64,000 nucleotides of DNA, from positions 124,001 to 188,000 of the forward strand of contig CANJRD010000006.1 in assembly GCA_947476695.1 (NCBI GenBank), read 5' to 3'. The translations under genes were made by a program, and so were the position numbers. Under the pieces are notes generated by a model. That model was given only the letters and a program-made list of their open reading frames with translations, was not told where the DNA came from and ran no database searches. Each line of letters begins with the position of its first letter. Within the stretch, counting starts at the first letter, position 1. Positions 61-19,332 of the stretch are shown piece by piece. The stretch comes from Rhodospirillaceae bacterium (lineage in GTDB: Bacteria; Pseudomonadota; Alphaproteobacteria; Rhodospirillales; Rhodospirillaceae).

Positions 61-2475
61 ATGCGCACTTCATCGCGCCGCTTGGCTTGGGCATTCAGCA
101 CCAGCGCCATTGCACTCATTTCCGCTTCGGCGGTCTTTGCCCAGGGCGGGCTCGAAGAAATCACCGTCACGGCACGTCGTACCGAAGAAAACCTGATGGC
201 GATTCCGATGGCCATCTCGGCGGTTTCGGCCGACGCGATCCAATCGGCCGGCATCAAGGACATGCGCACGCTGGCGGCCTACACGCCGGGTCTGCACATC
301 GACCAAGGCCTGACCAACAACCTCACCCGCACGCTGACGTTCCGCGGTCTCTCGACGTCGTCGGGTCAGGTTTTCGTCGACGGCATCTCGCTCGCCGGTA
401 ACGGCACGCCGTATCTCGGCGCGCTGGATCACGTCGAAGTGCTGGTCGGCCCGCAGAGCGTGTACTTCGGCCGCGCCACCTTCCAGGGCGCGCTGAACTT
501 CGTCACCAAGAAGCCGGCGGATCATTTCGCCGGCCGTGCGTACGGCGAATTCGGTTCTTACGGCACGCATGAAGTCGCGTTGACGTTGGAAGGCCCGATC
601 GTCGAAGACAAACTCGGCGTCCGTATCACCGGTCGCGGTTTCGGCACCGACGGTCAGTGGCGCAACTCGTCGCAGCCGGATCAGACGATGGGCTCGCGCT
701 CGTCGCGCTCGTTCATCGGCACGGCCTACTTCACGCCGACCGACGAAATCACCGCCAAGGTCTTCGTCGACCACGAATGGGACGATAGCGGCCCGCCGGC
801 GGCCATCGCGCTGAAGGGCAACAGCCTGCCGCAGTTTGGCGGTTCGGGCACCCAGGTCCCCGGCGTCACCGGCGGCAGCCAGGAACTGTTCTGCAACACG
901 CAGGGCACCTTCGGCACCTATTATTGCGGCGCGTTGCCGAACGCGAGCCAGATCGATCACAAGATCATCTCCGGCAACTACGACATCACGCCGTATCTGC
1001 AGGGTATCTTCTTCGACAACCGCATCGGCGTGCCGATGCTGTTCGATCCGCGCTTCCTGCAGCACAACGGCGGCAAGGCCGTCACGGACATGGTGCACCT
1101 GAGCGTGGAATACGCCGCGACGTCCGGCTGGACCTTCCAGTCGCTCAGCGGTTGGCACCACACGCTCGGCCAGTCGATCAACGCGCCGAACTACCGCGAT
1201 ACGCGCGACGTGCCGAACCCGCAGTTCAACACGCCGATCGCGGCGGGTCAGCCGTGCTGCCGTCTGAACTACATCAGCTTCCATCTGATGCAGCAGAGCA
1301 TCAACAACGACTATAACCAGGAGTTCCGTGTCTCCACGCCGCAGACGTGGCGCCTGCGTGGAACGGCCGGCGCGAGCTACCTGTACACGACGTCACCGGG
1401 CAACACGAACTTCGGTCAGTCGAAGACGGTGCCGCAGTACCAGGGTTCGCTCACCGCGCAGCGCACCAAGACGCCGGCGATCTACGGCGGTCTGTACTAC
1501 GATCTGATGGATACCCTCACGCTGACCGCCGAAGCCCGCTATCAGTGGGATACGGTGATCGCGACGACGTGGTACCCGACGGTCGCAGCCCCGCGTTCGG
1601 ATAAGTACGGCAGCTTCTCGCCGCGCGTTTCGCTCGATTACAAGTACGCGTCGGACTCGCTGCTCTATGGCTTGTTCTCGCGCGGCTATCGTCGTGGCGG
1701 CTTCAACTCGATCCTGGTCGGCCAGCCGGCTTCCGTGCTCGCGCAGCTCGCGCCGATCGGCGCCGCTGAAACCTTCGGCCAAGAAAAGCTCGATAACTTC
1801 GAGGCCGGCTGGAAGTCGACGTGGCTCGGCGGTCTCGCCCGTACCCGTTTGACGGGCTACTACCAGCTTTGGCGTAACGGCCAGGTGCCCAGCATCATCT
1901 CGTTCGTTCAGCCGAATGGCGGTGTCGTGAACACTTCGGTCACCACCAACGGCGGTGCGGTCGATCTGTACGGGACCGAATTCGAAGCCGATTGGGCTCC
2001 CAGCGAGAAGCTGACGTTGAACGCCACGTTCAATTGGGAAACGTCGAAGATCAAAGCGTACAACTACACGCCGGTCGGCACGCAGATCCGCCGCTCGACC
2101 AACATCACCGGCAACCGCTTCTGGGGTTCGCCTCAGCTGAAGTGGTCGGTGTCGCCGACCTACACCGATCACCTGTCCGGCGATTGGGATTGGTACACCC
2201 GCCTCGATTGGCGTTATCGCGGCAAGTACTACATCGACGGCACCAACCTTGCGTGGCTGCCGGGTAACCACAACCTCGATCTGCGCTTCGGCATCCAGCA
2301 TGCCAGCCTGAAGATCGAAGCTTACGTCACCAACCTGTTGGATAGCCGCAACTTCACGCAGGGCGAGTACGGTGCGGATTCGAGCAGCTCCACCGGGGGC
2401 TCGATCGAAAACGAAATCCGTCTTGGCCTGCCATACAAGCGTGCGTTCGGCATCAACATGACGTACGACTTCTAG
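61..2475 (+). CDS. TonB-dependent outer-membrane receptor
   Basis: This 804-residue protein is an outer-membrane receptor that would import a scarce or bulky ligand using energy passed on by TonB. A signal peptide (about residues 1-28, ending near VFAQ) is followed by a plug domain opening with EEITVTARR and then a long beta-barrel rich in aromatic and Gly residues. The chain ends in MTYDF, with the terminal Phe expected of barrel proteins. I chose the ATG at 61 because GGGGGA lies just upstream and the signal peptide starts there; an in-frame ATG at 4 would add 19 residues ahead of the signal. There is no FecA-type N-terminal signalling domain. The ligand cannot be read from sequence. Association with the redox operon just downstream is an inference from proximity. 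Confidence 0.93.
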   Translation: MRTSSRRLAWAFSTSAIALISASAVFAQGGLEEITVTARRTEENLMAIPMAISAVSADAIQSAGIKDMRTLAAYTPGLHIDQGLTNNLTRTLTFRGLSTSSGQVFVDGISLAGNGTPYLGALDHVEVLVGPQSVYFGRATFQGALNFVTKKPADHFAGRAYGEFGSYGTHEVALTLEGPIVEDKLGVRITGRGFGTDGQWRNSSQPDQTMGSRSSRSFIGTAYFTPTDEITAKVFVDHEWDDSGPPAAIALKGNSLPQFGGSGTQVPGVTGGSQELFCNTQGTFGTYYCGALPNASQIDHKIISGNYDITPYLQGIFFDNRIGVPMLFDPRFLQHNGGKAVTDMVHLSVEYAATSGWTFQSLSGWHHTLGQSINAPNYRDTRDVPNPQFNTPIAAGQPCCRLNYISFHLMQQSINNDYNQEFRVSTPQTWRLRGTAGASYLYTTSPGNTNFGQSKTVPQYQGSLTAQRTKTPAIYGGLYYDLMDTLTLTAEARYQWDTVIATTWYPTVAAPRSDKYGSFSPRVSLDYKYASDSLLYGLFSRGYRRGGFNSILVGQPASVLAQLAPIGAAETFGQEKLDNFEAGWKSTWLGGLARTRLTGYYQLWRNGQVPSIISFVQPNGGVVNTSVTTNGGAVDLYGTEFEADWAPSEKLTLNATFNWETSKIKAYNYTPVGTQIRRSTNITGNRFWGSPQLKWSVSPTYTDHLSGDWDWYTRLDWRYRGKYYIDGTNLAWLPGNHNLDLRFGIQHASLKIEAYVTNLLDSRNFTQGEYGADSSSSTGGSIENEIRLGLPYKRAFGINMTYDF

Positions 2476-2498: not shown

Positions 2499-3011
2499 GT
2501 GAAAAGCATGGAACGGCGCTTGGTTGTCGCGATGTTGGGTTTGCTGATGGCAAGCCCAGTCGGAGCCGCCGACCAATCCGATCCGCTTGGAGAGTCCAAG
2601 TACCCCGATCCCAGCCTCAAGGGGCCGCCGATTGCCTTTACGACTGAACTCCGCGCGTCCGAGGAGAGTTCGGTCGTCGACAGTCCTGCAAAGGGCCGTG
2701 CCGATTTCGTCCTCGACCGCGCCACGATGCGGTTGTCGTGGAAGATTACCTATCAAGACCTGACCTCTGCGCCGATCGCTGCCAAGATTCACGGTCCCCA
2801 GACGCCGGGCGGTGAAGCGGGGCCGCTTGTCGATCTCGCGCCCAATGGTGTGAAAAGCCCGCTTGAGGGGTCCATCATTCTTACGGACGGGCAGCTGCGT
2901 TACCTGCTGACCGACCGGATGTACGTCAACATCACGACCCAAAAGTACAAGCTCGGCGAGATCCGCGGCCAGCTTGCACGCCAGCGCCTCAAACCGGCCG
3001 TGAGCCAGTAA
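2499..3011 (+). CDS. Exported CHRD-domain protein
   Basis: A 170-residue secreted protein. Residues 1-23 form a signal peptide ending in GAA. The rest resembles a single CHRD domain: an FTTELRASEES opening, a central AAKIHGP element and the closing LGEIRGQL, which is typical of CHRD beta-strand repeats. CHRD proteins are extracytoplasmic and functionally poorly defined. The GTG at 2499 has GGAGAGGGG about 8 nt upstream; an ATG at 2508 is the alternative. It sits 23 nt after the receptor gene and 6 nt before the NrfD gene, so co-transcription with both is likely. Confidence 0.75.
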   Translation: MKSMERRLVVAMLGLLMASPVGAADQSDPLGESKYPDPSLKGPPIAFTTELRASEESSVVDSPAKGRADFVLDRATMRLSWKITYQDLTSAPIAAKIHGPQTPGGEAGPLVDLAPNGVKSPLEGSIILTDGQLRYLLTDRMYVNITTQKYKLGEIRGQLARQRLKPAVSQ

Positions 3012-3017: not shown

Positions 3018-3917
3018 ATGAGGAGCGTTCAGGGCCAAGCCCACGTCATCCAGCAAGGTCGGCCGGACTTCCGCGTTGGCGTGAAGCTCCAGTCAATTTG
3101 GGGCTTTCGCGAAGGTTCCGTGTTCTCGGTCGAGGGGGTGGCGGCGACCTTCATGATGCTCGCGGCCAGCGCGCAATGGCTGCCGGGCATGATCGCTGCC
3201 GAACTGGTGATGGTGCTCGCCGTCGTTCTGCTGTTCAGCCACCTCGGCAATCCGTGGGCGGCGTGGCGCGCGATCGCGAACATCCGCCGTTCATGGATCA
3301 GCCGCGGCACGGCGGTGATCGGCGCCTTCTGTGGCCTCGGCGCGATCGCAGTGTTCTTGCGCCTGGTCAATCTCGGTCTGCCGGACTTCATACCGACCGC
3401 GATCTATTGGCTGCAGATGATAGCGTCGGCGTTCATCCTGTTCTATCCCGGCTTCGCGATGGCTGCGTCCGCAGGCATCCCGTTCTGGAACACCGGCATG
3501 CTGCCGATCCTGTCGGCGTTGTCGGGGCTCGCGAACGGCGGTGCAGCTGGCCTGGTGTTCGGCGAGATTCTCGCGCCCCGCTGGCTTGATGCGCCGTCGC
3601 AGCCGATCGCCGAACTTGGTCTGCTCGCGGCGATTGCAATTTGCATCGTGGCGTTCCTGTCGGCGGCGCACCGCATGGGTCGCGCGGCGCGTTTTTCAGG
3701 CCAACGCTTGCTCACACATGAGAAGGCTTTGTTCTGGGGCGGGGCCATCGGTGTTGGACTGGTCGTACCGGCGCTGACGACGACGCTTCTGTACCTTCAG
3801 CCCGATAAGGTAGGCTTGACCGCAGTGCTCATCCTCGGGGCAATCGCCCGTGTTGCCGGCGATATCTCGCTGCGTTACGCCATTCTGCGAGTCGGCGCCT
3901 ACGAGGCGTTGGTCTAG
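3018..3917 (+). CDS. NrfD/DmsC-like membrane anchor subunit
   Basis: A 299-residue polytopic membrane protein with about eight hydrophobic segments. It is recognisable as a quinone-interacting anchor of the NrfD/PsrC/DmsC class by overall pattern and by the C-terminal GDISLRYAILRVGAYEAL-type ending. In such complexes it exchanges electrons between the quinone pool and the iron-sulfur subunit. It lies directly upstream of the Mo catalytic and ferredoxin subunits on the same strand, giving the order anchor-catalytic-ferredoxin. The ATG at 3018 follows the preceding stop by 6 nt and adds a polar N-terminal stretch of about 30 residues; the GTG-rich stretch after 3080 could hide a shorter start. 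Confidence 0.8.
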   Translation: MRSVQGQAHVIQQGRPDFRVGVKLQSIWGFREGSVFSVEGVAATFMMLAASAQWLPGMIAAELVMVLAVVLLFSHLGNPWAAWRAIANIRRSWISRGTAVIGAFCGLGAIAVFLRLVNLGLPDFIPTAIYWLQMIASAFILFYPGFAMAASAGIPFWNTGMLPILSALSGLANGGAAGLVFGEILAPRWLDAPSQPIAELGLLAAIAICIVAFLSAAHRMGRAARFSGQRLLTHEKALFWGGAIGVGLVVPALTTTLLYLQPDKVGLTAVLILGAIARVAGDISLRYAILRVGAYEALV

Positions 3918-3935
3918 TTTTTCGGAGAGTCGGTT

Positions 3936-6527
3936 ATGGACGGTGATGCTTCGCACGCGGCCACCCCTCATGTCCCAAAAGAGGGAGAAACGTGGACGCC
4001 GTCGGTCTGCATGGGCTGCTACAATTGTTGCGGGATCAAGGTACAAAGCGTCGACAACAAGGTCGTCAACGTCATCGGCGATCCCGCCGCGCCAAATTCC
4101 AAGGGTCACATCTGCGCCAAAGGCAAGGCGCGCTTTCTCGACCTGCACGATCCCAAGCGTTTGCTCCATCCGATGCGCCGCACCAATCCGGAGAAGGGTA
4201 TCGGAGTAGATCCGCAGTGGAAGCAAATCAGCTGGGAAGAGGCGCTGACCGAGGTCACCGGGAGGCTGAAGAGCATCCGTGAGACCGACCCGCGCAAGCT
4301 GGTGATCGCGCACTTCGATCTGCCGGCCTACGGAATCTCGAAGGCGTTTGGCGCAGCGTTTGGCACGCCGAACCTGACATGGAACCGTGCCGACTATTGC
4401 GGCGCCGCGCCGCACGTGGCGCACCTTCTGTTGAATGGCTCGTTCAACGGCGAATTGGACTTCGAGAAGTGCAACTACATGGTCCTGTGGGGCACCCAGA
4501 TGGGCGCGCTTGCCGAGACCATTCCGCTGCACACGGCCGAAGTGATGGCGAATGCGCGTAAGCGCGGCGCCCGCCAGGTCGTGATCGATCCGTTCTGCTC
4601 CAATGCTGCCGCGAAGGCCGATCATTGGGTGCCGCTGCGTCCGGGCACGGACGGCATGCTTGCGCTGGCGATGCTGAACGTCGTCTGCAACGAACTCGGC
4701 ATCTATGACGTCAAGTTCCTTAAGCACTCCACTAACGCCCCCTATCTGGTGCAGGAAGACGGGCACTACAAGCGCGACACCGCCACGAACAAGCCGATGG
4801 TGTGGGACACCACGACCAACAGCGCGAAACCGTTCAATGATGCCGACGTTATCGATCCGGCGCTTGAAGGCGAGTACCTGGTCGATAACACGCTAGTACG
4901 GCCGTCCTTCGTGGTCCTGAAGAAGCACCTGCTGCAGTACACACCGGAAGAGTCCGAGCGTATAACGACGGTGCCGGCGGCGACTTGCCGCTTGATCGCC
5001 AAAGAGTTCGTCGAAGCGGCGCAGATCGGCAGCACGATCGTGATCGACGGCGTGGAGCTTCCATTCCGCCCGGCCGCGATTCACTTCAAGCGTGGCTCCG
5101 GCGCACATAAGGGCGGCTGCCATACCTCGCTCGCGATCCATATGCTTAATGCGATGGTCGGCAATCTCGACGTGCCGGGCGGCCAGCGCGGCGTGAACCC
5201 TATCGGTCCGTTCTGGGAGCCGGAGGCGGACGAGGACGGCATGCTGGTGCCCGCGCAGTACATCACGAAGTACTACAAGCCCTATCCGCCGCGCGAGCCG
5301 AAGGTTCCCGAAACGCTGGACCTGAACGAGATTTTCCCGGCGTCGCTATTCACGCGCGGAATGTTCGCCTGGGGCATCCGCGAGCCGGAGAAGTTCGGCA
5401 TCACCTATAAGCCGGAAATGCTGCTGCATTGCCGCACGAATCTGATGATGAACAGCCACAATCCGGAAGCAATGTCCGGCGTGCTGAAGAAAATCGGTTA
5501 TCAGGTATCTTTCGCGACCTTCGTCGATGAGACGGTGGAATTCGCCGACATCGTGCTGCCGGACTCGCACGACTACGAGCGCTGGGACCTTTTCCCCGCT
5601 AACGATCCTTACGCCTTCATCGCGCCGGGGCCGGGCGAGTGGTACTGGCTGATGCGCCAGGCGGCGGTCGATCCGCCGGGTGAGGCGCGGCCATGGTTGA
5701 ACGTCTATCTCGAACTGGCTGAGCGTCTCGGGATTCTCGAAGACCTCTACAAGATCGGGAACCAGAGCTGGAATATTGCCAAGCCCTACGCGCTGGATCC
5801 GACCAAGAAGTACACTGTGCAGGACATCGCCGTACGTCAGGCGAAATCGCTGCTGGGGCCGGATTTCGAGGTCGATCAGCTCGAGAGCACGGCGTGCATG
5901 ATCACGCGCAAGAAGACCATCCGCGAAGCCTATCCGCGCCCTTACATGAATGTGCGTGTGCCGGTGTATCTTGAGCATCTCATCGATGCGGGCGAGAAGG
6001 TGAAGGGCGTAATGGATCAGCTGAAGCTTGAATGGGACTTCCGTCCCTACACGCCGCTGCTGACTTACTTCCCGTGCCACACCCACGAACACGATCACGG
6101 CCGCGCTGAAGGGTTCGACCTGTTCATCGTCAACTTCAAGGTGCCGTTCATCACGTTCTCGGTCACCTCTGAGAACCTGTGGATCGACGAACTTGCACGC
6201 GGCAATCCTTACACGCACAACGTCATGATCAACACCGTGACGGCGGCCAAGAAAGGCATCAAGGACGGCGACCGCATCCTCATCGAGTCTGAGATCTCGA
6301 AGGGTGAGGGGTACGTCAAGGTGACCGAGTTGATCCATCCGGAGTGCATCGGCATACCCAGCACGCTCGGTCACTGGGCGCGTGCCTATACGGTCTCGAA
6401 GTACAAAGGCACGAGCTTCAATAATTTTCTGCCGGCGCCGGATGTCGCCTACATCGACACGCTGTCGGGTCAGACGGATTCGTGTACGCGCGTGCGGATC
6501 TCGCGCTTGGGAGGGCCGCGTCCATGA
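3936..6527 (+). CDS. Molybdopterin oxidoreductase catalytic subunit (DMSO reductase superfamily)
   Basis: An 863-residue Mo/W-bisPGD enzyme. Residues 25-60 carry Cys25-x2-Cys28-x3-Cys32-x27-Cys60, which binds the proximal [4Fe-4S] cluster, followed by GHICAKGKA. Later come superfamily signatures such as VVIDPFCS and WVPLRPGTDGMLALAM, and near the end the molybdopterin dinucleotide-binding domain (about 725-860). Cys155, in NRADYCGAA, is the best candidate for the Mo ligand, which would place it nearer thiosulfate/polysulfide reductases or formate dehydrogenases than Ser-ligated DMSO reductases. There is no Tat leader, which is unusual for an enzyme with an NrfD partner and suggests a cytoplasmic location. 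GGAGAG precedes the ATG. The substrate is unknown. Confidence 0.9.
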   Translation: MDGDASHAATPHVPKEGETWTPSVCMGCYNCCGIKVQSVDNKVVNVIGDPAAPNSKGHICAKGKARFLDLHDPKRLLHPMRRTNPEKGIGVDPQWKQISWEEALTEVTGRLKSIRETDPRKLVIAHFDLPAYGISKAFGAAFGTPNLTWNRADYCGAAPHVAHLLLNGSFNGELDFEKCNYMVLWGTQMGALAETIPLHTAEVMANARKRGARQVVIDPFCSNAAAKADHWVPLRPGTDGMLALAMLNVVCNELGIYDVKFLKHSTNAPYLVQEDGHYKRDTATNKPMVWDTTTNSAKPFNDADVIDPALEGEYLVDNTLVRPSFVVLKKHLLQYTPEESERITTVPAATCRLIAKEFVEAAQIGSTIVIDGVELPFRPAAIHFKRGSGAHKGGCHTSLAIHMLNAMVGNLDVPGGQRGVNPIGPFWEPEADEDGMLVPAQYITKYYKPYPPREPKVPETLDLNEIFPASLFTRGMFAWGIREPEKFGITYKPEMLLHCRTNLMMNSHNPEAMSGVLKKIGYQVSFATFVDETVEFADIVLPDSHDYERWDLFPANDPYAFIAPGPGEWYWLMRQAAVDPPGEARPWLNVYLELAERLGILEDLYKIGNQSWNIAKPYALDPTKKYTVQDIAVRQAKSLLGPDFEVDQLESTACMITRKKTIREAYPRPYMNVRVPVYLEHLIDAGEKVKGVMDQLKLEWDFRPYTPLLTYFPCHTHEHDHGRAEGFDLFIVNFKVPFITFSVTSENLWIDELARGNPYTHNVMINTVTAAKKGIKDGDRILIESEISKGEGYVKVTELIHPECIGIPSTLGHWARAYTVSKYKGTSFNNFLPAPDVAYIDTLSGQTDSCTRVRISRLGGPRP

Positions 6528-7120
6528 GCAAGTACGGCATGGTGATGGACCTAGACCGTTGCATCGGTTGCAACGCTTGCGTGATTGCGTGCAAAGTCGA
6601 GCACAACACGCCGGTCGATATCCATTTCACACGCATCCTCGAAGTCGAGGTCGGCACGTATCCCGACGTCGGTCGTCAGTTCCTGCCGGTGATGTGCAAT
6701 CACTGCGACGACGCCCCCTGCATCGATGTCTGTCCCACGCAGGCCACGTACGCGCGCGAGAAGGACGGGATCGTCCTAATCGATTGGGACAAGTGCATCG
6801 GCTGTGGCGGCTGCATCCTTGCCTGCCCGTATGAGCAACGTTTCCCGGTGCACGACAATCGCACCTCGTTCCCGGACGGCGGCGACTTCAAGAGCCCGGT
6901 CGTGGACCGCGCGCCCACAGGCGTCACTGTAAAGTGCGACTTCTGCTATCACCGAATCGACGAGGGCCGCGAGCCCGCTTGCGTTGAGGCCTGCCCGACC
7001 AATGCGCGCATTTTCGGCGAGCAGGACGGCGAGAAACTTGCGCCCATCATCAGCCGCCAGCATTCGTGGACGCTATTGCCGGACAAGGGCGCTAAGCCCG
7101 GCGTTTACTACGTCGGTTGA
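6524..7120 (+). CDS. Four-cluster 4Fe-4S ferredoxin subunit
   Basis: A 198-residue electron-transfer subunit of the DmsB/PsrB/NrfC type. Four Cys motifs are visible: CIGCNACVIACK near residue 12, CNHCDDAPCIDVCP, CIGCGGCILACP and CDFCYH...PACVEACP. They give 16 cysteines for four [4Fe-4S] clusters that wire the Mo site to the membrane anchor. The start ATG at 6524 overlaps the TGA of the catalytic gene (ATGA), a coupled arrangement. There is no signal peptide, as is normal for this subunit, which usually hitchhikes on the catalytic partner. Here the partner also lacks a leader. Confidence 0.92.
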   Translation: MSKYGMVMDLDRCIGCNACVIACKVEHNTPVDIHFTRILEVEVGTYPDVGRQFLPVMCNHCDDAPCIDVCPTQATYAREKDGIVLIDWDKCIGCGGCILACPYEQRFPVHDNRTSFPDGGDFKSPVVDRAPTGVTVKCDFCYHRIDEGREPACVEACPTNARIFGEQDGEKLAPIISRQHSWTLLPDKGAKPGVYYVG

Positions 7121-7129
7121 TGTGACGCC

Positions 7130-8533
7130 ATGAGCGGGCCCGCGGTTATTTCGCCCGATCAAGCGCGCTTCGGCGATGAGGCCGAGGTGGTCATTGTTGG
7201 CGCCGGGGCCTGCGGTCTTTGCGCCGCACTGGCGGCCCGCGACGGCCAGGCCGATGTGCTGGTCATCGAACGCGACGCCGTGCCGCGCGGTACGACCGCC
7301 ATGTCGATCGGCCTCATCCCGGCGGCGAACACGCGTTTTCAGCGTGACCGTGGCATCAACGATTCAGTCGAGCTGTTTGCCGGCGACATTCTTAAGCGCA
7401 ACAACGGCCAAACCGACATTGACCGCGTTCATCACATTGTCCGCGAAAGTGCGCCGACCATCGAATGGCTGGTCGACAAGCACGCGATCCCGTTGTCGTT
7501 GCAGAACGAACTCTACGCCGGCCACAGCCTTTATCGCATGCACGGCACTATCGGATGCACCGGCGGCGAGGTTATGGATGCGCTTTATGATGCTTCCAAG
7601 AAGGCCGGTGTGCGATTTGCGTTGGAGACGGTGGTCGACAGCCTCTTCGCCGACAGCAACGGCAGGATAGCCGGCGTGCGCGTGACAAGCGAAGGCCAGC
7701 AGCGGGATATCGCTTGCGGCGCCTTGATTCTCGCCAGCAGCGGGTTTGCAGCCAATCGCGAGATGGTGACGAAGCACATTCCGGCGATGGCCAAGGCCGG
7801 CGCCTACTGCCATCATGGCGCGCAAGGCGACGCGGTGCGCTGGGGCGAGGGACTTGGCGCCGCGCTCGGGGACATCACCGCGTACCAGAGCCACGGTGGC
7901 CTCATGGTCGATCGCCCAGTGTCGGTGCCTTGGGCGCATATCCTGCGCGGCGGTATCCAAGTGAACGCGACGGGGAAGCGCTTCTCAGACGAAACGTCGA
8001 ACTATGCCGAGCGCGCGCTCGATATCCTCGCGCAACCCGGCGGCTTCGCGTGGAGCATCTACGATCAACAGATCGAGGATAATCTTGCGAAGTACGTGCC
8101 CTACGTCGATTTCCTCAAAGTCGGTTTGGTATTGAGCGCCGACAGTGCGGATGAGCTTTGCGCGATCACCGGCTTGCCGCCCGCGTTGAAGGATACGCTG
8201 CGCGAAGTGCAGGATGCCGCGGCCGGCAAGAGCAAAGATCCGCTGGGCCGAACGTTCCGCGATACGAAGCCGCTGACCGCGCCGTTCAAGGCGGTGAAAG
8301 TGACGGGTTCGCTGTATCACACCCAGGGCGGGCTCGAAGTCGACGCACAGGGCCGAGTCCTTAAAGCCGACCGTAGTCCGTTCCCGAACCTGTTCGCGGG
8401 CGGCGGCGCGGCGCGGGGAATCTCAGGGGCTGGCTGTGCCGGCTATCTGGCGGGGAACGGATTGCTGACGGCTTCCGTCTACGGGCGGCTTGCCGGCACT
8501 GCGGCCGCGGCCCAGACGCTCACATCCGCGTGA
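7130..8533 (+). CDS. FAD-dependent oxidoreductase (FAD_binding_2, fumarate reductase-like)
   Basis: A 467-residue flavoprotein. The N terminus has the dinucleotide-binding motif VVIVGAGACGL followed by an ERD ribose-binding acid. The chain ends with a GGGAARGISGAGCAGYLAGNG segment typical of the fumarate reductase / 3-ketosteroid dehydrogenase superfamily C terminus, where the FAD domain closes. No signal peptide, heme or extra iron-sulfur motif is present. It starts 9 nt after the ferredoxin gene, so it is the fourth member of the redox operon and could deliver or accept electrons through it. The reaction (alkene reduction, or alkane-type desaturation of a ring) is not determinable. A second, Tat-exported relative lies at 52226-53842. 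Confidence 0.85.
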   Translation: MSGPAVISPDQARFGDEAEVVIVGAGACGLCAALAARDGQADVLVIERDAVPRGTTAMSIGLIPAANTRFQRDRGINDSVELFAGDILKRNNGQTDIDRVHHIVRESAPTIEWLVDKHAIPLSLQNELYAGHSLYRMHGTIGCTGGEVMDALYDASKKAGVRFALETVVDSLFADSNGRIAGVRVTSEGQQRDIACGALILASSGFAANREMVTKHIPAMAKAGAYCHHGAQGDAVRWGEGLGAALGDITAYQSHGGLMVDRPVSVPWAHILRGGIQVNATGKRFSDETSNYAERALDILAQPGGFAWSIYDQQIEDNLAKYVPYVDFLKVGLVLSADSADELCAITGLPPALKDTLREVQDAAAGKSKDPLGRTFRDTKPLTAPFKAVKVTGSLYHTQGGLEVDAQGRVLKADRSPFPNLFAGGGAARGISGAGCAGYLAGNGLLTASVYGRLAGTAAAAQTLTSA

Positions 8534-8707: not shown

Positions 8708-9823
8708 ATGAATCGTCTTACTTCATGGCTCATTCCATTAGCCCTGTTGGCCAGCGCTAGCAGCGCGCAAGCGGCCGCGCCCGAAGGGCGCCGCATGGCT
8801 TTCGTGGTGAAGGATTGGTTCACCTCCATCTATGAGACGAAATTCCAGGACGAGTGCCCGGAGGGCATGAGCACCGCGAACGACGAGTTCTGGTGGCGCA
8901 AGACGTCGCCCGAACAGCGCGCCAAGCTCACCGGCAACGGCATGATCCAGGCGCTGAATCGCTTCGGCGTTTCGGTGAACCAGGGCGACAACAAAGAAAA
9001 CGTCTGCTTGCAGCCTGACTCGGTGAAGCGTCCGCGGATGCGCACGGTCGAAGGCCCCACGTCCTACGGCATGAACCTCGACGGCACGACCGACGGCAAG
9101 GCCACGCCGAAGTCTTGCGCGCACACCAAGTTCGTCGCGCCCGACGGTACGCCCGGCATCGACAACCAACTCTATCGTTTGGTCGGCTGCACCTATGGCT
9201 GGCGCAAGAACGTCGGCACGGTTGACGCCAACGCCAATGAAATGCGCGGCACGTCCGGTCTCGGCATGATCCTGATCGAGATCACCGACGTCGACGACAC
9301 CAAGAACGACGACGACGTCACCGTCACCTTCTATCGCTCGGTGGACCAGTGGGTGCAGGACAGCGGCGGCAGCCCGCTGCCGTTCAGCACGTACTCGATC
9401 GATATGGTCGACGGTAAGCCGCGCTATGGCGATTCCGCCAAGGGCCGCATCAAGGACGGCGCGATCGAGACCAAAGCCGCCGACGTTCGTCTGCCCTTCT
9501 ACGGCAACTACAATTTCATGCACCCGGTCATCAAAGACATGCAGCTGAAACTGCATCCCGTCGCCGATGGCACGAAGGCGCATGGCATGGTGGCCGGTTA
9601 CTATAGCCTGGCGGACTTCCAGTACTACATCGGCGGCCTCGGCGGCGTGATCCCGGTGAACGGCATCGACTGCCCCTCCGTCATCCAGGAAGCCGCGCGT
9701 CTTGCCGACGGCTATCCGGACCCGAAGACAGGGCAGTGCACGGCGCTGTCGTCAGCTTTCGATATCGAGGCCTATGCGGCCTTTGTGCGTCACCCCAAGA
9801 CTGAACGGACTGCTCAGCGATGA
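8708..9823 (+). CDS. Exported protein of unknown function
   Basis: A 371-residue protein with a clear signal peptide (residues 1-21, ending SAQAAA). I do not recognise a named domain. The mature part is Cys-containing, with eight or so spaced Cys such as DECPEG and VGCTYGWRK, and otherwise polar, with blocks such as MILIEITDVDD and NDDDVTVTFY. Start: ATG 8708, because the signal peptide follows and GGAGG lies at 8691-8695. Its stop overlaps the next start by 4 nt, so it is translationally coupled to the DUF1592/1588 lipoprotein and presumably acts with it in the periplasm or at the surface. Confidence 0.8.
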   Translation: MNRLTSWLIPLALLASASSAQAAAPEGRRMAFVVKDWFTSIYETKFQDECPEGMSTANDEFWWRKTSPEQRAKLTGNGMIQALNRFGVSVNQGDNKENVCLQPDSVKRPRMRTVEGPTSYGMNLDGTTDGKATPKSCAHTKFVAPDGTPGIDNQLYRLVGCTYGWRKNVGTVDANANEMRGTSGLGMILIEITDVDDTKNDDDVTVTFYRSVDQWVQDSGGSPLPFSTYSIDMVDGKPRYGDSAKGRIKDGAIETKAADVRLPFYGNYNFMHPVIKDMQLKLHPVADGTKAHGMVAGYYSLADFQYYIGGLGGVIPVNGIDCPSVIQEAARLADGYPDPKTGQCTALSSAFDIEAYAAFVRHPKTERTAQR

Positions 9824-11487
9824 TCCGTATCTCTGCCCGTAAGTTACTGAGCGCCACGCTGCTGGCTGCAGTTGCTGTGGTCGCGGGTTGCAATGCGCCT
9901 GAGCCCAAGTCCGCCGGCGGTTCGCCGGAAATGCGCCGTCTGACGGACCAGCAGTACCACAACATCATGGTCGATGTTTTCGGCGCCGGCGTCGACATTG
10001 GCGCGAAGTTCGACCCGTTGCAGCGCACCGAAGGCTTGTCGACGCTCTCGACCGCGACGGCGCGCGTCACGCCGGATGGCTTCGAGCGTTTCTACACCAC
10101 CGCACGCATCGTGTCCGGCAATGTTGTCGATGAAGAGCACCGCGCCACGCTGGTGCCATGCGATATCGCCAACCCCGCGGTCGCCGATGATGCTTGCGCC
10201 ACCAAGTTCTTCAAGGACACCGGCCGCCTCTTGTTCCGCCGCGCGCTCAGCGAAAAGGAACTCGCCTTCTTCGTGAAGGCCGCGCACGAGGGCGCCGAAG
10301 TTCACAAGGACTTCTACCAGGGCCTCGGCGTCGCGCTCTCCGCGATGCTGGTGACACCGGAATTCCTGTTCGTCGCCGACGCGACCGAAGCCGATCCTGC
10401 CAACGCCGGTCAGCAGCGGCTGACGGGCTATGCCAAGGCGGCGCGCCTCAGCTTCCTGCTGTGGAACACCGCGCCGGATGACGTGCTGTTGGCGGCGGCA
10501 GAGAAGGGCGATCTGCATACCAAGGCCGGCGTCGAACGCCAGGTCACCCGCTTGATTGAATCGCCCAACCTCGATCAGGGCGTGCGCGCGTTCTTCGCCG
10601 ACTTCCTCGACTTCCAAAAGTTCGAGACGCTCGAGAAAGATCCGGTGATCTATCCGACCTTCACCTCGACCGTCGCCGACGATGCGCGCGAGCAGGTGTT
10701 GCGCACCATCTCCGATGTGGTTGTGACGCGCGACGCCGACTATCGCGACGTGTTCACGACGACGAAGACCTACATGAACCGCACGCTGGCGCGTGTCTAT
10801 CGCGTGAGCGCGGATCGCACCGACGACGGTTGGTCGGCCTACGAATTCCCGAAAGACGATATGCGCGCGGGCATTCAGACTCAGGTCGCAATGCTTGCCC
10901 TCTATGCCCACCCGGGCCGCAGCTCGCCGACTCTGCGCGGCCGCGCCGTACGCGAGCTGCTGCTGTGCCAGCACATCCCCGATCCACCGGGCGATGTCGA
11001 TTTCTCGCTGTTCAACGATCCGAACTCGCCGAACAAGACCGCGCGCGATCGCCTCACGGCGCATCAGAACGCGCCGGCCTGCGCGGGCTGTCATAAGCTG
11101 ACCGATCCCATCGGCCTGACATTCGAGAACTTCGATGGCGCGGGCCAGTTCCGCACCACGGAGAACGAGGTGGAGATCGACACCAAAGGCGATCTTAACG
11201 GTAAGCCCTACATCGATCCGCGCGGCTTCGCGAAAGCGTTGCACGACGATCCGGCGACCAGCCAGTGCCTCGCCAATAGGCTGTATGCCTATTCGGTTGG
11301 CCATGCGCCGGCCCAGGGCGACCGCGAGTTCGTGAAGTATCTCGAAACGTCGTTCGCAAGCGACGGCTACAAGTTCAAGAGTCTCTTGAAGCGTATCGCG
11401 CTGAGCGATGCATTCTTTATCATCAAGCCCAAGAGCGCGCCGCCGGCCACTGCGACCGCGCCGAACTCGGAGGAGAAGCGGTCATGA
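9820..11487 (+). CDS. DUF1592/DUF1588/DUF1585 c-type heme lipoprotein
   Basis: A 555-residue lipoprotein with leader and lipobox VVAGC (about residue 24). The body matches the DUF1592-DUF1588-DUF1585 architecture: MRRLTDQQYHNIM opening, FRRALSEKEL and GVALSAMLVTPEFLF segments, then RGRAVRELLLCQHIPDPP. A heme motif CAGCHKLTDPIGLTFENFD (CxxCH) is followed by the C-terminal NRLYAYSVGHAP segment. These proteins are best known from Planctomycetes and Myxococcota, where they accompany DUF1552 proteins. Function is not established; the heme points to electron transfer. It overlaps the neighbouring genes on both sides by 4 nt. Confidence 0.88.
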   Translation: MIRISARKLLSATLLAAVAVVAGCNAPEPKSAGGSPEMRRLTDQQYHNIMVDVFGAGVDIGAKFDPLQRTEGLSTLSTATARVTPDGFERFYTTARIVSGNVVDEEHRATLVPCDIANPAVADDACATKFFKDTGRLLFRRALSEKELAFFVKAAHEGAEVHKDFYQGLGVALSAMLVTPEFLFVADATEADPANAGQQRLTGYAKAARLSFLLWNTAPDDVLLAAAEKGDLHTKAGVERQVTRLIESPNLDQGVRAFFADFLDFQKFETLEKDPVIYPTFTSTVADDAREQVLRTISDVVVTRDADYRDVFTTTKTYMNRTLARVYRVSADRTDDGWSAYEFPKDDMRAGIQTQVAMLALYAHPGRSSPTLRGRAVRELLLCQHIPDPPGDVDFSLFNDPNSPNKTARDRLTAHQNAPACAGCHKLTDPIGLTFENFDGAGQFRTTENEVEIDTKGDLNGKPYIDPRGFAKALHDDPATSQCLANRLYAYSVGHAPAQGDREFVKYLETSFASDGYKFKSLLKRIALSDAFFIIKPKSAPPATATAPNSEEKRS

Positions 11488-12860
11488 GCGTTCTGCTGCC
11501 TCGTACCATCCATCGTCGCGAAGTCCTGCGCGGCACCCTGGGTGGTGCTGCCGTCACCATGTCACTGCCGTTCCTGGATTGTGTGCTGAACACGAACGGC
11601 ACGGCGATCGCCGCTACCGGTCAGCCGATCCCCGTGCGTTTCGGCACGTGGTATTGGGGCATGGGACATACCCCCGGCCACGCCATTCAAGACAAGGGCG
11701 CGACCGCGAAGGGCATCGGCTTCCTCGAGGAATGCCAAGCGCTCAAGCCCTATGAGGCGTACCTGAACTTCTTCAACGGCTTCGCGATGCCGCTGGACGG
11801 TCACTCGAACTACACCCACTTCTCCGGCTGGTGCGCCAGCCGTACCGGTACGGCTCCGGCCAAGACCAACGAGATCCCGGCGCCGACGTTCGATCTGCTG
11901 ATCGCCGACGCGATCGGTCGCGGCTCGCGTTTCGAGACGCTGAACGTCACCGCCTCCGGCATGCCGCGCGCCTGCTACAGCGCGCGTTCCACCGACAGCC
12001 GCGGCAACGCGGAAGTGTCGCCGGTGTCGCTGTATGCCCGCATCTTTGGGCCGGAATTCGTCGATCCGAACAAGGCCGACTTCAAACCCGATCCGCGCGT
12101 GATGCTCGAAAAGAGCGTGCTGTCCGGCGTGGCCGAACAGAGCAAGGATTACGTCAAGACGCTCGGCGCGGCCGACAAGGCCCGTCTGGACGAGTACTTC
12201 ACCTCCGTTCGTCAGGTCGAAAACCAGCTGGCGCTCCAACTCGAGAAGCCGGCGGCGAACGACGCCTGCCGCGTGCCGCCCAATCCGGCGCAAGAGACCA
12301 AGCAGGACGAAGCCCGTGTCGCGCGCGACATGGATCACGTCGTCGAAACGCACAATGTCATGTCCAAGCTTCTGGCCATGGCGGTCGCGTGCAATCAGAC
12401 CAAAGTCTTCAACATGGTCTTCACCGACGACTTCGCCAACGTGCGCCGTGCCGGTGAAACCTATACGCACCATCTGCTCACGCACGAAGAAGCGATCGAC
12501 ACGAAGCTCGGCTATCAGCCGCTGACGTTCTGGTTCAATCAGCAGTGCAGCAACGGTTTCGCGAAGTACCTCGATACCCTGTCGAGCATCAAGGAAGGCG
12601 CGGGCAACCTGCTCGACAATTGCTTGATCTTCGCGGGCAGCGAAACCAACTATGCGCGCGTTCACACCATCGATGGCGTGCCGCTGTGGCTGGCCGGCAA
12701 GGCCGGTGGCCGCATGAAGACCGGCTATCACGTCGTCGGCGGCGCCGACCCTGTCACGCGCGTGCCGCTCACGGCCATGAAGATCATGGGCGTGCCGCTG
12801 CAGAACTGGGGTACCCGGTCGCTGCAGACGTCCAAGGTCGTCAGCGACGTGATGGCGTGA
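11484..12860 (+). CDS. Tat-exported DUF1552 family protein
   Basis: A 458-residue protein starting with a twin-arginine leader (HRREVLRGTLGGAAV). The remainder follows the DUF1552 pattern: RFGTWYWGMGH early, DGHSNYTHFSGW, then a long alpha/beta body and the late segment LIFAGSETNYARVHT. DUF1552 resembles the DUF1501/sulfatase-type alkaline phosphatase fold by family knowledge, but no activity has been assigned. Export by Tat implies folding, and perhaps cofactor loading, in the cytoplasm. Its start overlaps the DUF1592/1588 gene (ATGA). The two families are a conserved pair in other phyla, so a joint complex is the natural inference. Confidence 0.87.
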   Translation: MSVLLPRTIHRREVLRGTLGGAAVTMSLPFLDCVLNTNGTAIAATGQPIPVRFGTWYWGMGHTPGHAIQDKGATAKGIGFLEECQALKPYEAYLNFFNGFAMPLDGHSNYTHFSGWCASRTGTAPAKTNEIPAPTFDLLIADAIGRGSRFETLNVTASGMPRACYSARSTDSRGNAEVSPVSLYARIFGPEFVDPNKADFKPDPRVMLEKSVLSGVAEQSKDYVKTLGAADKARLDEYFTSVRQVENQLALQLEKPAANDACRVPPNPAQETKQDEARVARDMDHVVETHNVMSKLLAMAVACNQTKVFNMVFTDDFANVRRAGETYTHHLLTHEEAIDTKLGYQPLTFWFNQQCSNGFAKYLDTLSSIKEGAGNLLDNCLIFAGSETNYARVHTIDGVPLWLAGKAGGRMKTGYHVVGGADPVTRVPLTAMKIMGVPLQNWGTRSLQTSKVVSDVMA

Positions 12861-12865
12861 TCGCC

Positions 12866-13969
12866 ATGAAGCGCGCCATTGGGTTGATCCTCAGCGGAGC
12901 GTTGGTCGCCGGTCTGGGGGCGGGTGCTTCCGCCGCCGAACCGTCGGGTGTGGTTTTCCAGCAGCGTGGTGATGGCGCGGTGCTGGCCACGCCGGTCGGC
13001 ATGACGCTCTATACCTTTGCCCGCGATCAGGAGCCCGGGAAGTCGGCCTGCAATGAAGGCTGCGCCAAGGTGTGGCCGCCGTACCTCGCCACGGGCGATG
13101 CAAAAGCCCAGGGCGATTGGTCGCTGGTCAAACGCGCGGACGGCAGTCTGCAGTGGGCCTACCGCGATAAGCCGCTTTACGCCTACAGCAAGGACGTCGC
13201 CGCCGGCGACACCTTCGGCGAAGAGGTCAACGGCCAATGGCATCTCGCCTTCAAGGCGATTTTCACGCCTCCCGAAATCGCGGTGACGAAGACGTTGATC
13301 GGCTCCGCGCTCGCGAACTCCGCGGGTATGGCGCTCTATACGTCGGATAAAGACAAGCCGAACGAGTCGGCGTGCAACGATGCGTGCGTACGCACGTGGC
13401 GGCCCGTGAGTGCGCCATGGTCGGCGCGCGCGACTGGTGACTGGTCCATCGTGGCGCGTAAGGACGGCACGCGTCAGTGGGCGCATAAGGGCAAGCCGCT
13501 CTATGCCTATGCCCTCGAAGCCAAAGCCGGCGCGACGCTCGGCGATGGCGTCGACAAGACGTGGCATGCCGCGATTGTTCAACCGCCTTCGCCGATGCCG
13601 GCCTGGGTGAAAATCCATCAGTCCGATGCTGGCGAGTTGTTTACCGACGCCCAAGGTCGGACGCTGTACCAGCGTGTCGTGCGCCCCAGGGCAGCCGGCG
13701 GTGAAAACATCGAGATGGGGCTGACGAGCGACGACGCCCCGAAGGCCTTCCATCCGGTCACCGTCGCTTCCGCCGAAGACGCGAAGCCGGTAGGCAACTG
13801 GTCGATCGTCGATCAGGGGGGCAACAAGCAGTGGGCCTACAAAGGCCTGCCGCTTTACACCAACGAGTTGGACGTGGCGCCCGGCGATCTCAAGGGCTTC
13901 CGCGGCAGCGACCGCAGCTTCCACACCATCATGCGCTCCGGCGAGCCCATGCAGGGCACGGGGCAGTAA
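12866..13969 (+). CDS. Exported COG4315-like repeat protein
   Basis: A 367-residue secreted protein with signal peptide (1-24, ending ASAAE). It contains tandem copies of the COG4315 lipoprotein unit: MTLYTFARDQ...SACNEGCAKVWPP (about residues 45-75), MALYTSDKDKPNESACNDACVRTW (about 150-175), and a third, Cys-less copy at RTLYQRVV. Each is followed by a DWS...QWAYKGKPLYAY half. The first two copies keep the paired Cys. The function of COG4315 proteins is unknown. The start ATG at 12866 lies 5 nt after the DUF1552 stop, so this is the last gene of the operon before the terminator at 13990. Confidence 0.82.
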   Translation: MKRAIGLILSGALVAGLGAGASAAEPSGVVFQQRGDGAVLATPVGMTLYTFARDQEPGKSACNEGCAKVWPPYLATGDAKAQGDWSLVKRADGSLQWAYRDKPLYAYSKDVAAGDTFGEEVNGQWHLAFKAIFTPPEIAVTKTLIGSALANSAGMALYTSDKDKPNESACNDACVRTWRPVSAPWSARATGDWSIVARKDGTRQWAHKGKPLYAYALEAKAGATLGDGVDKTWHAAIVQPPSPMPAWVKIHQSDAGELFTDAQGRTLYQRVVRPRAAGGENIEMGLTSDDAPKAFHPVTVASAEDAKPVGNWSIVDQGGNKQWAYKGLPLYTNELDVAPGDLKGFRGSDRSFHTIMRSGEPMQGTGQ

Positions 13970-14909: not shown

Positions 14910-16460
14910 ATGAGCGGCAGACTCTTCATCAAGAAAACCGTCGATCAGGTCCAGCATGAGGCGACGACCCACAGTCTGAAGCGATCTCTTGGACCTGCGA
15001 ACTTGGTTCTCTTCGGCGTGGGCTGCATCATCGGCGCCGGCATCTATGTGATGACGGGCAACGCCGCCGCCACCTATGCGGGTCCTGCGGTGCTGCTGTC
15101 GTTCGTGGTCGCGGGTCTGGCCTGCGCCTTTGCAGGACTTTGCTATGCGGAACTGGCCTCCACCATGCCGGTCGCCGGATCGGCCTACACATATTCCTAC
15201 ACCTCCCTGGGTGAGGTCTTCGCCTGGACGATGGGCTGGCTGCTGGTGCTGGAGTACGGCGTCGCGGCCGCTACGGTCGCCGTGGGTTGGTCGGGCAATG
15301 TCGTCAGCCTGCTCGGCAACTACGACATCGTGCTGCCCGACTGGCTGACATCGCCTTATATCCAGGCCGCGCCGGACGCGGCCGGCACGTTGATCTTCTC
15401 CGCCGGACATGGCCTGAACCTGATCGCCGCCGCCGGCATCCTGACGGTGACGGTGTTACTGGTCATCGGGGTGGCGGAATCCGCCAAGGTCAACAACGTC
15501 ATCGTCATCGTCAAAGTGGGCGTGCTGCTGGCGTTCATCGTTTACGGTGTCGCGTTCATCAACGTCGACAACTACGACCCGTTCATCCCGCCCAACGAAG
15601 GCGGCTTCAAATACGGCGTACCGGGAATCTTCCGTGCGGCGTCGGTGATCTTCTTCGCCTACGTCGGCTTCGAGGCCGTCTCGACGGCGGCGGCGGAATC
15701 GAAAAACCCACAACGCGACATGCCTATCGGCATCCTGGGCTCGCTGTTCGTCTGCACGGCGATCTACATGCTGGTCGCCGCAGTTCTGACCGGCGTCGTG
15801 CCGTTCCGCGAACTGGGCGTTCCGGCGCCGATCGCGCTGGCCGTTGACCGCATGGGCATCCCCTGGTTCGCCATCATGATCAAGATCGGCGCGATTGCCG
15901 GTTTGACCTCCGTGATGTTGATCCTCACCTATGGCCAGACGCGTATCTTCTATTCGATGGCGCGTGACGGGCTATTGCCGCGCGCCTTCGCCACGGTGCA
16001 TCACAAGTTCCGTACACCCTGGATCGGCACGATCATCCTGGGCATCATCATCGCCATCGCGGCGGCTTTGTTGCCGATCTCGATCCTGGGCGATCTCGTC
16101 AGCCTCGGCACGGCGGTCGCTTTCGCCATCGTCTGCATCAGCGTGATGTGGTTGCGCCGCAGCCGTCCGGATCTGAAGCGTCCTTTCACCGCCCCGGGCG
16201 GTGCGCTGACGCCCATCCTGGGCATCATCTTCGCCGGCATCATGGCGGCGCCGTTGATCTGGGACATCATAGACAAGGCGATGAGCGGCGATCCGATCCC
16301 CGCCATCATCCTGTCGACCTACATCCTGCTGGGCGCGCTGATCTACGGCTTCTACGGTCTGTCGCATTCGCGTCTGGCGCAGGGACTTCCCATCCTCGAC
16401 GACTCAGCTCTGCCGTCGCCCATGGAGGCGCAAGCCTTCGGTCTGAACGAGAAGCGTTAG
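14910..16460 (+). CDS. APC-family amino acid permease
   Basis: A 516-residue inner-membrane transporter with about 12-14 transmembrane segments, of the cationic-amino-acid/YfnA-like branch of the APC superfamily. The signature in TM1 is VGCIIGAGIYVMTG, with the unwound GxG; CYAELASTMPVAGSAY follows in the TM2-3 region and FFAYVGFEAVSTAAAE in TM6. Such proteins move amino acids by proton coupling or exchange. AGGGGGAC precedes the ATG. It is a single gene; the IclR gene converges on it with a 4-nt gap, so no functional link to that cluster is evident. Confidence 0.9.
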   Translation: MSGRLFIKKTVDQVQHEATTHSLKRSLGPANLVLFGVGCIIGAGIYVMTGNAAATYAGPAVLLSFVVAGLACAFAGLCYAELASTMPVAGSAYTYSYTSLGEVFAWTMGWLLVLEYGVAAATVAVGWSGNVVSLLGNYDIVLPDWLTSPYIQAAPDAAGTLIFSAGHGLNLIAAAGILTVTVLLVIGVAESAKVNNVIVIVKVGVLLAFIVYGVAFINVDNYDPFIPPNEGGFKYGVPGIFRAASVIFFAYVGFEAVSTAAAESKNPQRDMPIGILGSLFVCTAIYMLVAAVLTGVVPFRELGVPAPIALAVDRMGIPWFAIMIKIGAIAGLTSVMLILTYGQTRIFYSMARDGLLPRAFATVHHKFRTPWIGTIILGIIIAIAAALLPISILGDLVSLGTAVAFAIVCISVMWLRRSRPDLKRPFTAPGGALTPILGIIFAGIMAAPLIWDIIDKAMSGDPIPAIILSTYILLGALIYGFYGLSHSRLAQGLPILDDSALPSPMEAQAFGLNEKR

Positions 16461-16464
16461 GGCT

Positions 16465-17292
16465 TCAGCCCGCGGCGGGCGGAGACGTGACGGTCGGCGA
16501 GGTCTCAAAGGCCTTGCCGATCTCTTCCGCGGATCGCCGCAGCAGTGGGACGTATTTCTCCACCGCCTGCTCGATATTCAGCGCGCCCCGGGTGAAACGC
16601 ATGACCAGCGCGGCCAGCATCCGGTTGCGGATGAGGATCGGCAGCGCAAGGCTGAGTTCCGGCGCAACCGTGTCGTCGTACAGCGCCCAGCCGTTGTTGC
16701 GAACTTCGGCAAGAATGCGATTCAGCTGGTCTTTGTCGCGCGCCAGCCGGTCTTCCGGCCGCTCGGAGCGGGCCAGCACGTCGAGCAGGATGGCGCGCTG
16801 ATCGTCGCCGCCCATGGCGAGCAGGAGGCGGCCCGAAGAACTCTCGAGGATCGGCGCGCGCAAGGCGGGCTGCCGGGCGCCATCTCTTTCCACAGGCTCG
16901 CGGACCAGCATGGAGACCCCATGCAACGTTGCGATGGCCAACGGCCAGCTGCTGTCCTTGGCGCTTTTTGCGAGGACCGGCCGCGCTATTTCGGGAATCC
17001 AAGGCTCGTCCTCGAAGCCATCGGCGAGCGCGCGCACCTTGAGCGTCAGGCGATAGCGATCGTCCGTGGTATCGCGCACCGCGACGCCGGCGACGCAGAG
17101 CGTCTCCAGGACGCGATAGGCGGTCGTGCGCGGCAGCTTGATGGCGCGGGCGATGTCGGTGACGGTCGCGCCCGGCCGGCCGTTCAGTTCCTGCAGTGCT
17201 TCCAGCCCACGCAACAGCGCGCGGATCGGGCGCACGGACTCCGTGCCCTTTTCCGCACCGGCCTGTTCGTCGTCATCCTCGATTTCGGACAT
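16465..17292 (-). CDS. IclR-family transcriptional regulator
   Basis: A 275-residue regulator. Residues about 25-85 form the IclR winged helix (ATVTDIARAIKLPRTTAYRVLETL), followed by the effector domain with the family pattern LESSSGRLLLAMGG and a C-terminal IEQAVEKYVPLLRRSAEEIG helix. The sequence resembles the MhpR-type regulators of aromatic-acid degradation. I chose the ATG at 17292; a GTG at 17307 would add five residues. It is divergent from the flavin reductase/monooxygenase genes across about 150 nt, the usual layout for a local regulator, so control of 17444-20247 is likely. Confidence 0.88.
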   Translation of the reverse strand: MSEIEDDDEQAGAEKGTESVRPIRALLRGLEALQELNGRPGATVTDIARAIKLPRTTAYRVLETLCVAGVAVRDTTDDRYRLTLKVRALADGFEDEPWIPEIARPVLAKSAKDSSWPLAIATLHGVSMLVREPVERDGARQPALRAPILESSSGRLLLAMGGDDQRAILLDVLARSERPEDRLARDKDQLNRILAEVRNNGWALYDDTVAPELSLALPILIRNRMLAALVMRFTRGALNIEQAVEKYVPLLRRSAEEIGKAFETSPTVTSPPAAG

Positions 17293-17443
17293 ATCGTTCC
17301 AGGACACGGCCCCATTTTCAGTGTCGACTGTAAAGCATTGTCCGACAGGCGGACACCGGTTTTTGTGAAGTTGTCGCGTGGCCGTTGCTCCCCGCCCAGG
17401 CGGCCTTTATGCAATGTATGCGGTCGGTTCAATGGGTTGGCGG

Positions 17444-18001
17444 ATGGCAGGGCAAAAGGCACAGGCGGACGGGCAGGCGGCCCTGATCAGCATTGAGGGC
17501 CAGTTAGGGGTCGACCCTGCGGGAGGTCCCGATGCGCAGCGTCAGTTCCGCCAGACCTTGGGGCAGTTCGCCACGGGTGTGACCGTGATGACCTGTATGG
17601 GACCGAATGGCAGCCGGATTGGCGTGACGGTGAATTCGTTCACCTCGCTCTCTTTGAATCCGCCGCTGATCATGTGGGCTTTGGCCGATAGTTCGGCAAA
17701 CTTCGGGTCCTTCGAGGCTGGCGCCCCATTCGCCGTGAATGTCTTATCCATCGATCAGGAACAGGCCGCCCGCCAATTCGCCACGCCCGCAGGCGACAAG
17801 TTCGCGAATATCGATATTCACGAGGGCATCGACGGCGTGCCGCTTATTGTCGGTTGTGTGGCCTACCTGGAGTGCCGCACTGAGGCCCGCTACCCCGGCG
17901 GCGATCACGAAATCATCGTCGGGCGTGTGCGGCGGGTCTTCAACATCGCCCGGCGCCCCCTGCTGTTCCATGGCGGGCAGTTCCACGTACCGCACTTGTG
18001 A
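17444..18001 (+). CDS. Flavin reductase (HpaC/RutF-like)
   Basis: A 185-residue FMN-binding split-barrel protein of the short-chain flavin reductase family. Family signatures are FRQTLGQFATGVTVMT, GVTVNSFTSLSLNPPLIMW, FAVNVLSIDQEQAARQFA and the late HEIIVGRVRRV. It would supply reduced flavin from NAD(P)H to a partner oxygenase. The start is uncertain: in-frame ATGs at 17414, 17432 and 17444 and a GTG at 17378 are all possible, and none has a strong ribosome-binding site. The monooxygenase gene follows after about 110 nt. That monooxygenase looks like a class A enzyme, which normally does not need a separate reductase. Confidence 0.85.
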   Translation: MAGQKAQADGQAALISIEGQLGVDPAGGPDAQRQFRQTLGQFATGVTVMTCMGPNGSRIGVTVNSFTSLSLNPPLIMWALADSSANFGSFEAGAPFAVNVLSIDQEQAARQFATPAGDKFANIDIHEGIDGVPLIVGCVAYLECRTEARYPGGDHEIIVGRVRRVFNIARRPLLFHGGQFHVPHL

Positions 18002-19315: not shown

Positions 19316-19332
19316 TTCCGGAGTTTCCGATC

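Follow-up and report, generated by a model that had tools for sequence, protein, structure and literature searches.

A leaderless molybdenum, iron-sulfur and NrfD gene set in a Rhodospirillaceae bacterium, predicted to encode a cytoplasm-facing, quinone-linked complex

NrfD anchors are usually drawn with extracellular-side partners, SoeC being the cited exception. Since SoeAB are hypothesised to reside at the cytoplasmic surface of the membrane, SoeC is expected to have the opposite orientation to other NrfD proteins (PMC8076601). SoeABC is described as a molybdenum (Mo)-FeS-NrfD complex with a hypothesised cytoplasmic orientation, and bSreA and SoeA are given as cytoplasmic, Cys-ligated enzymes (PMC8076601, PMC10100899).

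The window analysed was a 64,000-nucleotide stretch of a Rhodospirillaceae bacterium genome (GenBank assembly GCA_947476695.1, contig CANJRD010000006.1, positions 124,001 to 188,000, forward strand). An Mo-FeS-NrfD gene set followed by an FAD_binding_2 gene is located at 3018-8533, and was read in an earlier note as a cytoplasmic, quinone-linked redox complex of unassigned substrate. All four genes proved to be real at the coordinates listed below. Within the reach of the tools used, the set is an unnamed variant of a known complex type, and the surprise is lowered by SoeABC. A literature search for an NrfD-Mo-FeS-FAD gene set found no description.

Gene set and catalytic subunit

The operon and its neighbours were annotated as follows.

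61..2475, + strand: TonB-dependent outer-membrane receptor (Pfam; synteny in L027, L028 and L029)
2499..3011, + strand: CHRD-domain protein (Pfam CHRD; synteny)
3018..3917, + strand: NrfD/PsrC-type membrane anchor, 299 aa, 8 predicted TM helices (Pfam NrfD, 33.9 bits, E 3e-8)
3936..6527, + strand: Mo-bisMGD catalytic subunit, 863 aa, without leader (Pfam Molybdopterin, Fe4S4 and Molydop_binding above cut-off; alignments; AlphaFold2 model)
6524..7120, + strand: electron-transfer (ferredoxin) FeS subunit, 198 aa, 16 Cys, without leader (Pfam Fer4_11, E 2e-23)
7130..8533, + strand: FAD_binding_2 flavoprotein, 467 aa (Pfam, E 2e-45)
8708..9823, + strand: no-family protein, probably secreted (synteny; no match in Pfam and NCBIfam searches)
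9820..11487, + strand: DUF1592/DUF1588/DUF1585 (planctomycete-cytochrome-like) protein (Pfam; synteny)
11484..12860, + strand: DUF1552 protein (Pfam; synteny)
12848..13969, + strand: secreted-repeat protein, PF03640 (Pfam; synteny; start position approximate)

The NrfD, Mo, FeS and FAD genes are separated by 18, -4 and 9 bases, the stop of the Mo gene being overlapped by the ATG of the FeS gene, and 6 bases lie between the 3' end of the CHRD gene and the NrfD gene. The FeS gene was started at 6524 and a mechanical open reading frame start at 6482 was set aside. The flavoprotein, previously called an FAD dehydrogenase "fused by operon", is encoded as an operon neighbour and is not fused to the complex. 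The block at 8708-13969 is mostly secreted-looking, and three relatives also have it next to the Mo operon; planctomycete-type cytochrome genes like the DUF1592/1588/1585 gene are reported to be of function not known (PMC5615132). Genes of possible aromatic catabolism at 14910-30910 include IclR and GntR regulators, a dienelactone hydrolase, a UbiD decarboxylase and a flavin reductase adjoining an FAD monooxygenase.

The [4Fe-4S] cluster motif of the Mo subunit is C25-x2-C28-x3-C32-x27-C60. Cys155 aligned to the ligand-position Cys of PsrA and ArrA and, together with C25, C28, C32 and C60, was invariant in 24 aligned homologues from several clades including SoeA. Cys155 is the likely Mo ligand of the catalytic subunit, in agreement with the earlier note. 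The AlphaFold2 model of the subunit (mean pLDDT 85.7) was matched to ArrA with Z 32.0 over 706 residues at 3.0 Å, to PsrA with Z 30.9 over 681 residues at 2.7 Å, and to acetylene hydratase with Z 29.4. As modelled, the fold is ordinary for the DMSO reductase superfamily.

The Mo gene shares its frame with the NrfD gene, and the NrfD stop lies in that frame six codons before the Mo ATG, so that no longer start of the Mo subunit is possible. An RR leader was present on none of the 16 catalytic subunits in the window's clade of the tree, and was also absent from those of group B, group D and SoeA; it was present in group C and in the PhsA, ArrA, TtrA and DmsA references. The claim that the Mo subunit carries no Tat leader thus survived the search for an upstream start. 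The oddness that had been attached to a leaderless NrfD partner is weakened by the SoeABC precedent. The TorD/NarJ chaperone family was searched in the genome with no match, which was counted for a cytoplasmic complex.

Orientation and quinone site of the anchor

Anchor topology was predicted by a simple positive-inside method, with helices taken from hydropathy alone and Lys and Arg counted in the loops. The window NrfD had 16 Lys + Arg on the side of its termini versus 2 on the other. Counts were 9-18 versus 0-5 for subfamily anchors (n = 12, two of which were predicted with 7 or 9 helices rather than 8, blurring their side counts), 17-20 versus 0-3 for group B anchors (n = 6) and 16-23 versus 0-1 for SoeC (n = 3). 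The controls with periplasmic partners, E. coli DmsC and NrfD, gave the reverse (4 versus 8 and 5 versus 12, respectively). E. coli HybB, with 10 TM helices, was left out of the loop comparison on account of its extra helices. Because the eight helices of the compared anchors align one to one and the charge bias is opposite, homologous helices are predicted to run in reverse. The N and C termini of the window NrfD are therefore predicted to be cytoplasmic and the anchor inverted.

Described quinone or ion-pathway sites of NrfD proteins are a His, Asp or Glu in TM2 (DmsC H65), a conserved Ser (DmsC S82) and an Arg in TM8 (DmsC R271) (PMC8076601). These residues of DmsC map to H75, S92 and R286 of the window NrfD, which were kept in all 12 subfamily anchors; group B anchors have N or F instead of H75 and K instead of R286. 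The inverted charge bias of the window NrfD, with its putative quinone-site residues conserved, is what the present analysis adds.

At three loci forming a single branch of the tree (L060, L063 and L065), the NrfD slot directly upstream of the Mo gene was occupied by a NarI-like protein with CxxCH. The use of two unrelated quinone-type anchors on one Mo-FeS core favours a quinone-linked enzyme. L056 and L061 have large no-family open reading frames ahead of the Mo gene; an ordinary NrfD was found by tblastn at that place in L056, and the region contains Ns in L061. The termini-side charge bias and the conserved quinone-site residues make a quinone-linked complex with a cytoplasmic active site the most likely reading of the gene set. 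The earlier reading of the complex is backed on this point by the topology count, the quinone-site residues and the trees.

Relatives and family placement

After removal of nine duplicates, the subfamily was found in 20 genomes including that of the window, mostly MAGs, the others at 54-84% identity. A search of 385 genomes across the class gave no match at E < 1e-240 besides the window's own. The subfamily is rare. A ten-gene block was syntenic in three same-family relatives (L027, L028 and L029, the L029 contig ending within the TonB receptor gene), in the order TonB receptor - CHRD - NrfD - Mo - FeS - FAD - no-family - DUF1592/1588 - DUF1552 - secreted-repeat. The FeS subunit was 85-91% identical in these three. 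Occurrence in 20 genomes and ten-gene synteny in three relatives indicate that the gene set is not due to chance.

Two relatives at 72% identity (L030 and L031) retained the core, with a solute-binding protein and a CN-hydrolase as neighbours. Near the core of those at 63% identity (L032-L035) were a CoA ligase, a zinc dehydrogenase and an operon for an HcrA-like hydroxylase; the HcrA-like proteins scored under the HcrA family cut-off and count only as relatives of that family. L032 additionally had a LeuCD-like hydratase, a PrpB-like lyase, a hydantoinase and an isochorismatase, and PrpD-like, succinyl-CoA-ligase-like and CitE-like proteins were found in L063 and L065. The relatives' neighbours were thus catabolic (HcrA-like hydroxylase, CoA ligases, hydratases, lyases and C-N hydrolases), and no pointer to an inorganic donor or acceptor was seen among them. 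Since the accessory genes vary by subgroup, the subgroups may differ in substrate. Some relatives have a hydroxylase, a LeuCD-like hydratase, a PrpB-like lyase and amidohydrolases nearby, for which a nicotinate-type pathway was considered; it was set aside, as these genes vary between relatives and lie outside the window's operon. In L065 (1-22532), the Mo complex shares one locus with an aldehyde:ferredoxin oxidoreductase and about five MmgE/PrpD paralogues.

The window Mo subunit was scored against the NCBIfam curated cut-offs, giving 226 bits versus 694 for PhsA, 146 versus 1600 for ArrA and 66 versus 1750 for TtrA. PhsA, ArrA, TtrA, QrcB and DmsA identities all fell under their cut-offs and were rejected. 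A maximum likelihood tree of 43 catalytic subunits placed the window protein in a 16-row clade (support 100/100) beside group B, with members from alphaproteobacterial, betaproteobacterial, Lambdaproteobacteria and Myxococcota genomes, mostly MAGs. PhsA, ArrA, TtrA and DmsA were outside this clade. The SoeA rows, picked by homology to the Azospirillum protein encoded beside xsc, formed a monophyletic group of their own (100/100) without the window protein. In an N-domain fragment tree acetylene hydratase and PsrA also fell outside the window clade, weakly and on long branches. The earlier note had named PsrA, TtrA, ArrA and acetylene hydratase as the groups to compare; the window protein lies apart from TtrA and ArrA in the 43-row tree and, with the weaker placement of the fragment tree, from PsrA and acetylene hydratase. 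Its separation from SoeA, PhsA, ArrA and TtrA accords with the earlier reading of an unassigned substrate. Resorcinol hydroxylase and pyrogallol transhydroxylase were rejected as identities, as that family is listed as Ser-ligated (PMC10100899) and the window protein has the invariant Cys155.

A reduced tree united the window clade with group B (100/99) and its deeper order collapsed. The grouping of every leaderless form with SoeA in one clade was not rejected with it (p-AU 0.173), so no independent origin is claimed. Group B (L037-L046) is multi-copy, with up to three per genome, and has aromatic genes nearby. A related leaderless Mo enzyme of group D (L024, 1-1477) is followed by a single protein (about 490 aa) with a ferredoxin motif at its start and a hydrophobic end, in which ferredoxin and membrane portions look fused.

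Proposed function and comparison with described complexes

We judge it a little better than an even chance that the genes encode a complex iron-sulfur molybdoenzyme (CISM) held by an inverted NrfD at its cytoplasmic side, oxidising an organic intermediate with transfer of electrons to ubiquinone, and that the flavoprotein performs a separate step. The Mo and ferredoxin subunits would sit together on that face of the anchor. At the Mo site an organic catabolic intermediate would be dehydrogenated, or hydroxylated with water. From the Mo-subunit cluster, electrons would travel via the four ferredoxin clusters to the NrfD site, where ubiquinone would take them up for delivery to an oxidase. The flavoprotein would carry out a C-C desaturation or reduction in the same pathway, the compound of which is perhaps imported via the TonB receptor. 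Oxidation of an organic compound with ubiquinone as acceptor is favoured by the catabolic neighbours, the lack of an inorganic pointer among them and a haem-copper oxidase encoded in the genome. In this scheme we infer the assembly as one complex, the electron direction, the quinone type, the organic substrate and the role of the flavoprotein.

The flavoprotein matched urocanate reductase and flavocytochrome c3, with 6t86 as the fold match; the mean pLDDT of its model was only 70.2. It was aligned to Fcc3 and to the Fcc3 R402Y mutant 1jrz. Equivalents of Fcc3 H365 and H504 were retained (five homologues), the R402 position was Tyr292 and the R544 equivalent was absent. Fumarate reductases and flavocytochromes c carry both Arg402 and Arg544 (Fcc3 numbering), so by these residues the flavoprotein is not a fumarate reductase. 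It has the fold, FAD domain and two active-site His of the flavocytochrome c3/urocanate reductase family but differs in these two Arg positions and in having no haem domain.

A quinol-driven cytoplasmic reductase, catalysing for instance a dehydroxylation or the reduction of an aromatic or enone intermediate, with the flavoprotein in the same reductive pathway, is considered unlikely, though it has several points in its favour. The nearest solved folds, ArrA and PsrA by the Z scores above, are reductases, the flavoprotein is nearest to urocanate and fumarate reductases, and catechol dehydroxylases, some of which are leaderless, are Mo enzymes that work reductively (PMC7028382). This is countered by the haem-copper oxidase of the genome, by the oxidation of its substrate by SoeABC, the characterised cytoplasmic-side NrfD complex, and by the loss of both fumarate-reductase Arg residues from the flavoprotein.

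The flavoprotein gene accompanied the core in five genomes only (window, L027-L029 and L065) and was not found at L030-L035 or at most other core-intact loci, which makes it probably a pathway partner rather than a core subunit; the earlier idea of an FAD component in the core is weak for the same reason. A role for the flavoprotein as a genuine fourth subunit, exchanging electrons with the Mo-FeS-NrfD complex, is improbable. The 9-base distance to the FeS gene, the position shared by four genomes and the presence of a homologue near the distant Mo gene of L065 would suit such a subunit, but beyond its patchy occurrence the flavoprotein diverges faster than the core (57-58% versus 80-84%).

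It is very improbable that the window complex is a divergent SoeABC sulfite dehydrogenase. The layout of a leaderless Mo subunit, an FeS subunit and an apparently inverted NrfD with His/Ser/Arg is the same, but SoeA identity is rejected by the separate 100/100 SoeA group, the Mo subunit has only 27-31% identity to SoeA, and no sulfonate genes were seen near the operon. A non-redox Mo enzyme such as an acetylene hydratase-like hydratase would fit the Cys ligand, the cytoplasmic location and the structural match to acetylene hydratase, but is most improbable, as relatives retain a 16-Cys ferredoxin and a quinone-type anchor that a hydratase would not need, and acetylene hydratase branches elsewhere, if weakly.

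We put it somewhat below even that the subfamily is a second cytoplasm-facing NrfD family besides SoeABC, oxidising organic compounds into the quinone pool, exchanging NrfD for NarI-like anchors and possibly performing a new oxygen-independent hydroxylation or dehydrogenation. If true, flipping of the anchor would be a means that can be reused to link catabolism in the cytoplasm to respiration. The separately grouped set combines a SoeC-like inverted charge pattern with a conserved quinone site, and the approximately 20 genomes are a set in which to seek the substrate.

The general features of a CISM were found in the window: a catalytic subunit with bis-MGD domains and the FS0 cluster motif, a ferredoxin encoded alongside whose 16 Cys (Fer4_11) are consistent with four [4Fe-4S] clusters, and a candidate quinone-reactive anchor (NrfD match, 8 TM, H75/S92/R286). 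The twin-arginine leader of Tat-exported CISMs is missing from its Mo subunit. PsrABC/PhsABC and ArrAB have the overall catalytic fold, Cys ligand and ferredoxin partner in common with the window complex, but carry a Tat leader and are 22-25% identical in structural alignment. Group B, a sister clade of unnamed paralogues from the same taxonomic order at about 40% identity, has a leaderless Mo-FeS-NrfD set and anchor termini on the positive side like the window, and differs in its neighbours (TRAP transporters, hydantoinases, LigB and FAD proteins).

By sequence criteria the window genes have the SoeABC architecture, a leaderless Mo-FeS-NrfD set with a predicted inverted anchor, and their Mo subunit lies outside the SoeA clade. 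Both complexes have a leaderless, Cys-ligated Mo subunit with an FeS subunit, and an 8-TM NrfD with termini placed in the cytoplasm by charge and His/Ser/Arg retained. The gene order is A-B-C in SoeABC and NrfD-Mo-FeS in the window. Azospirillum SoeA adjoins xsc, and, unlike this sulfonate setting, the neighbours in relatives of the window subfamily are catabolic.
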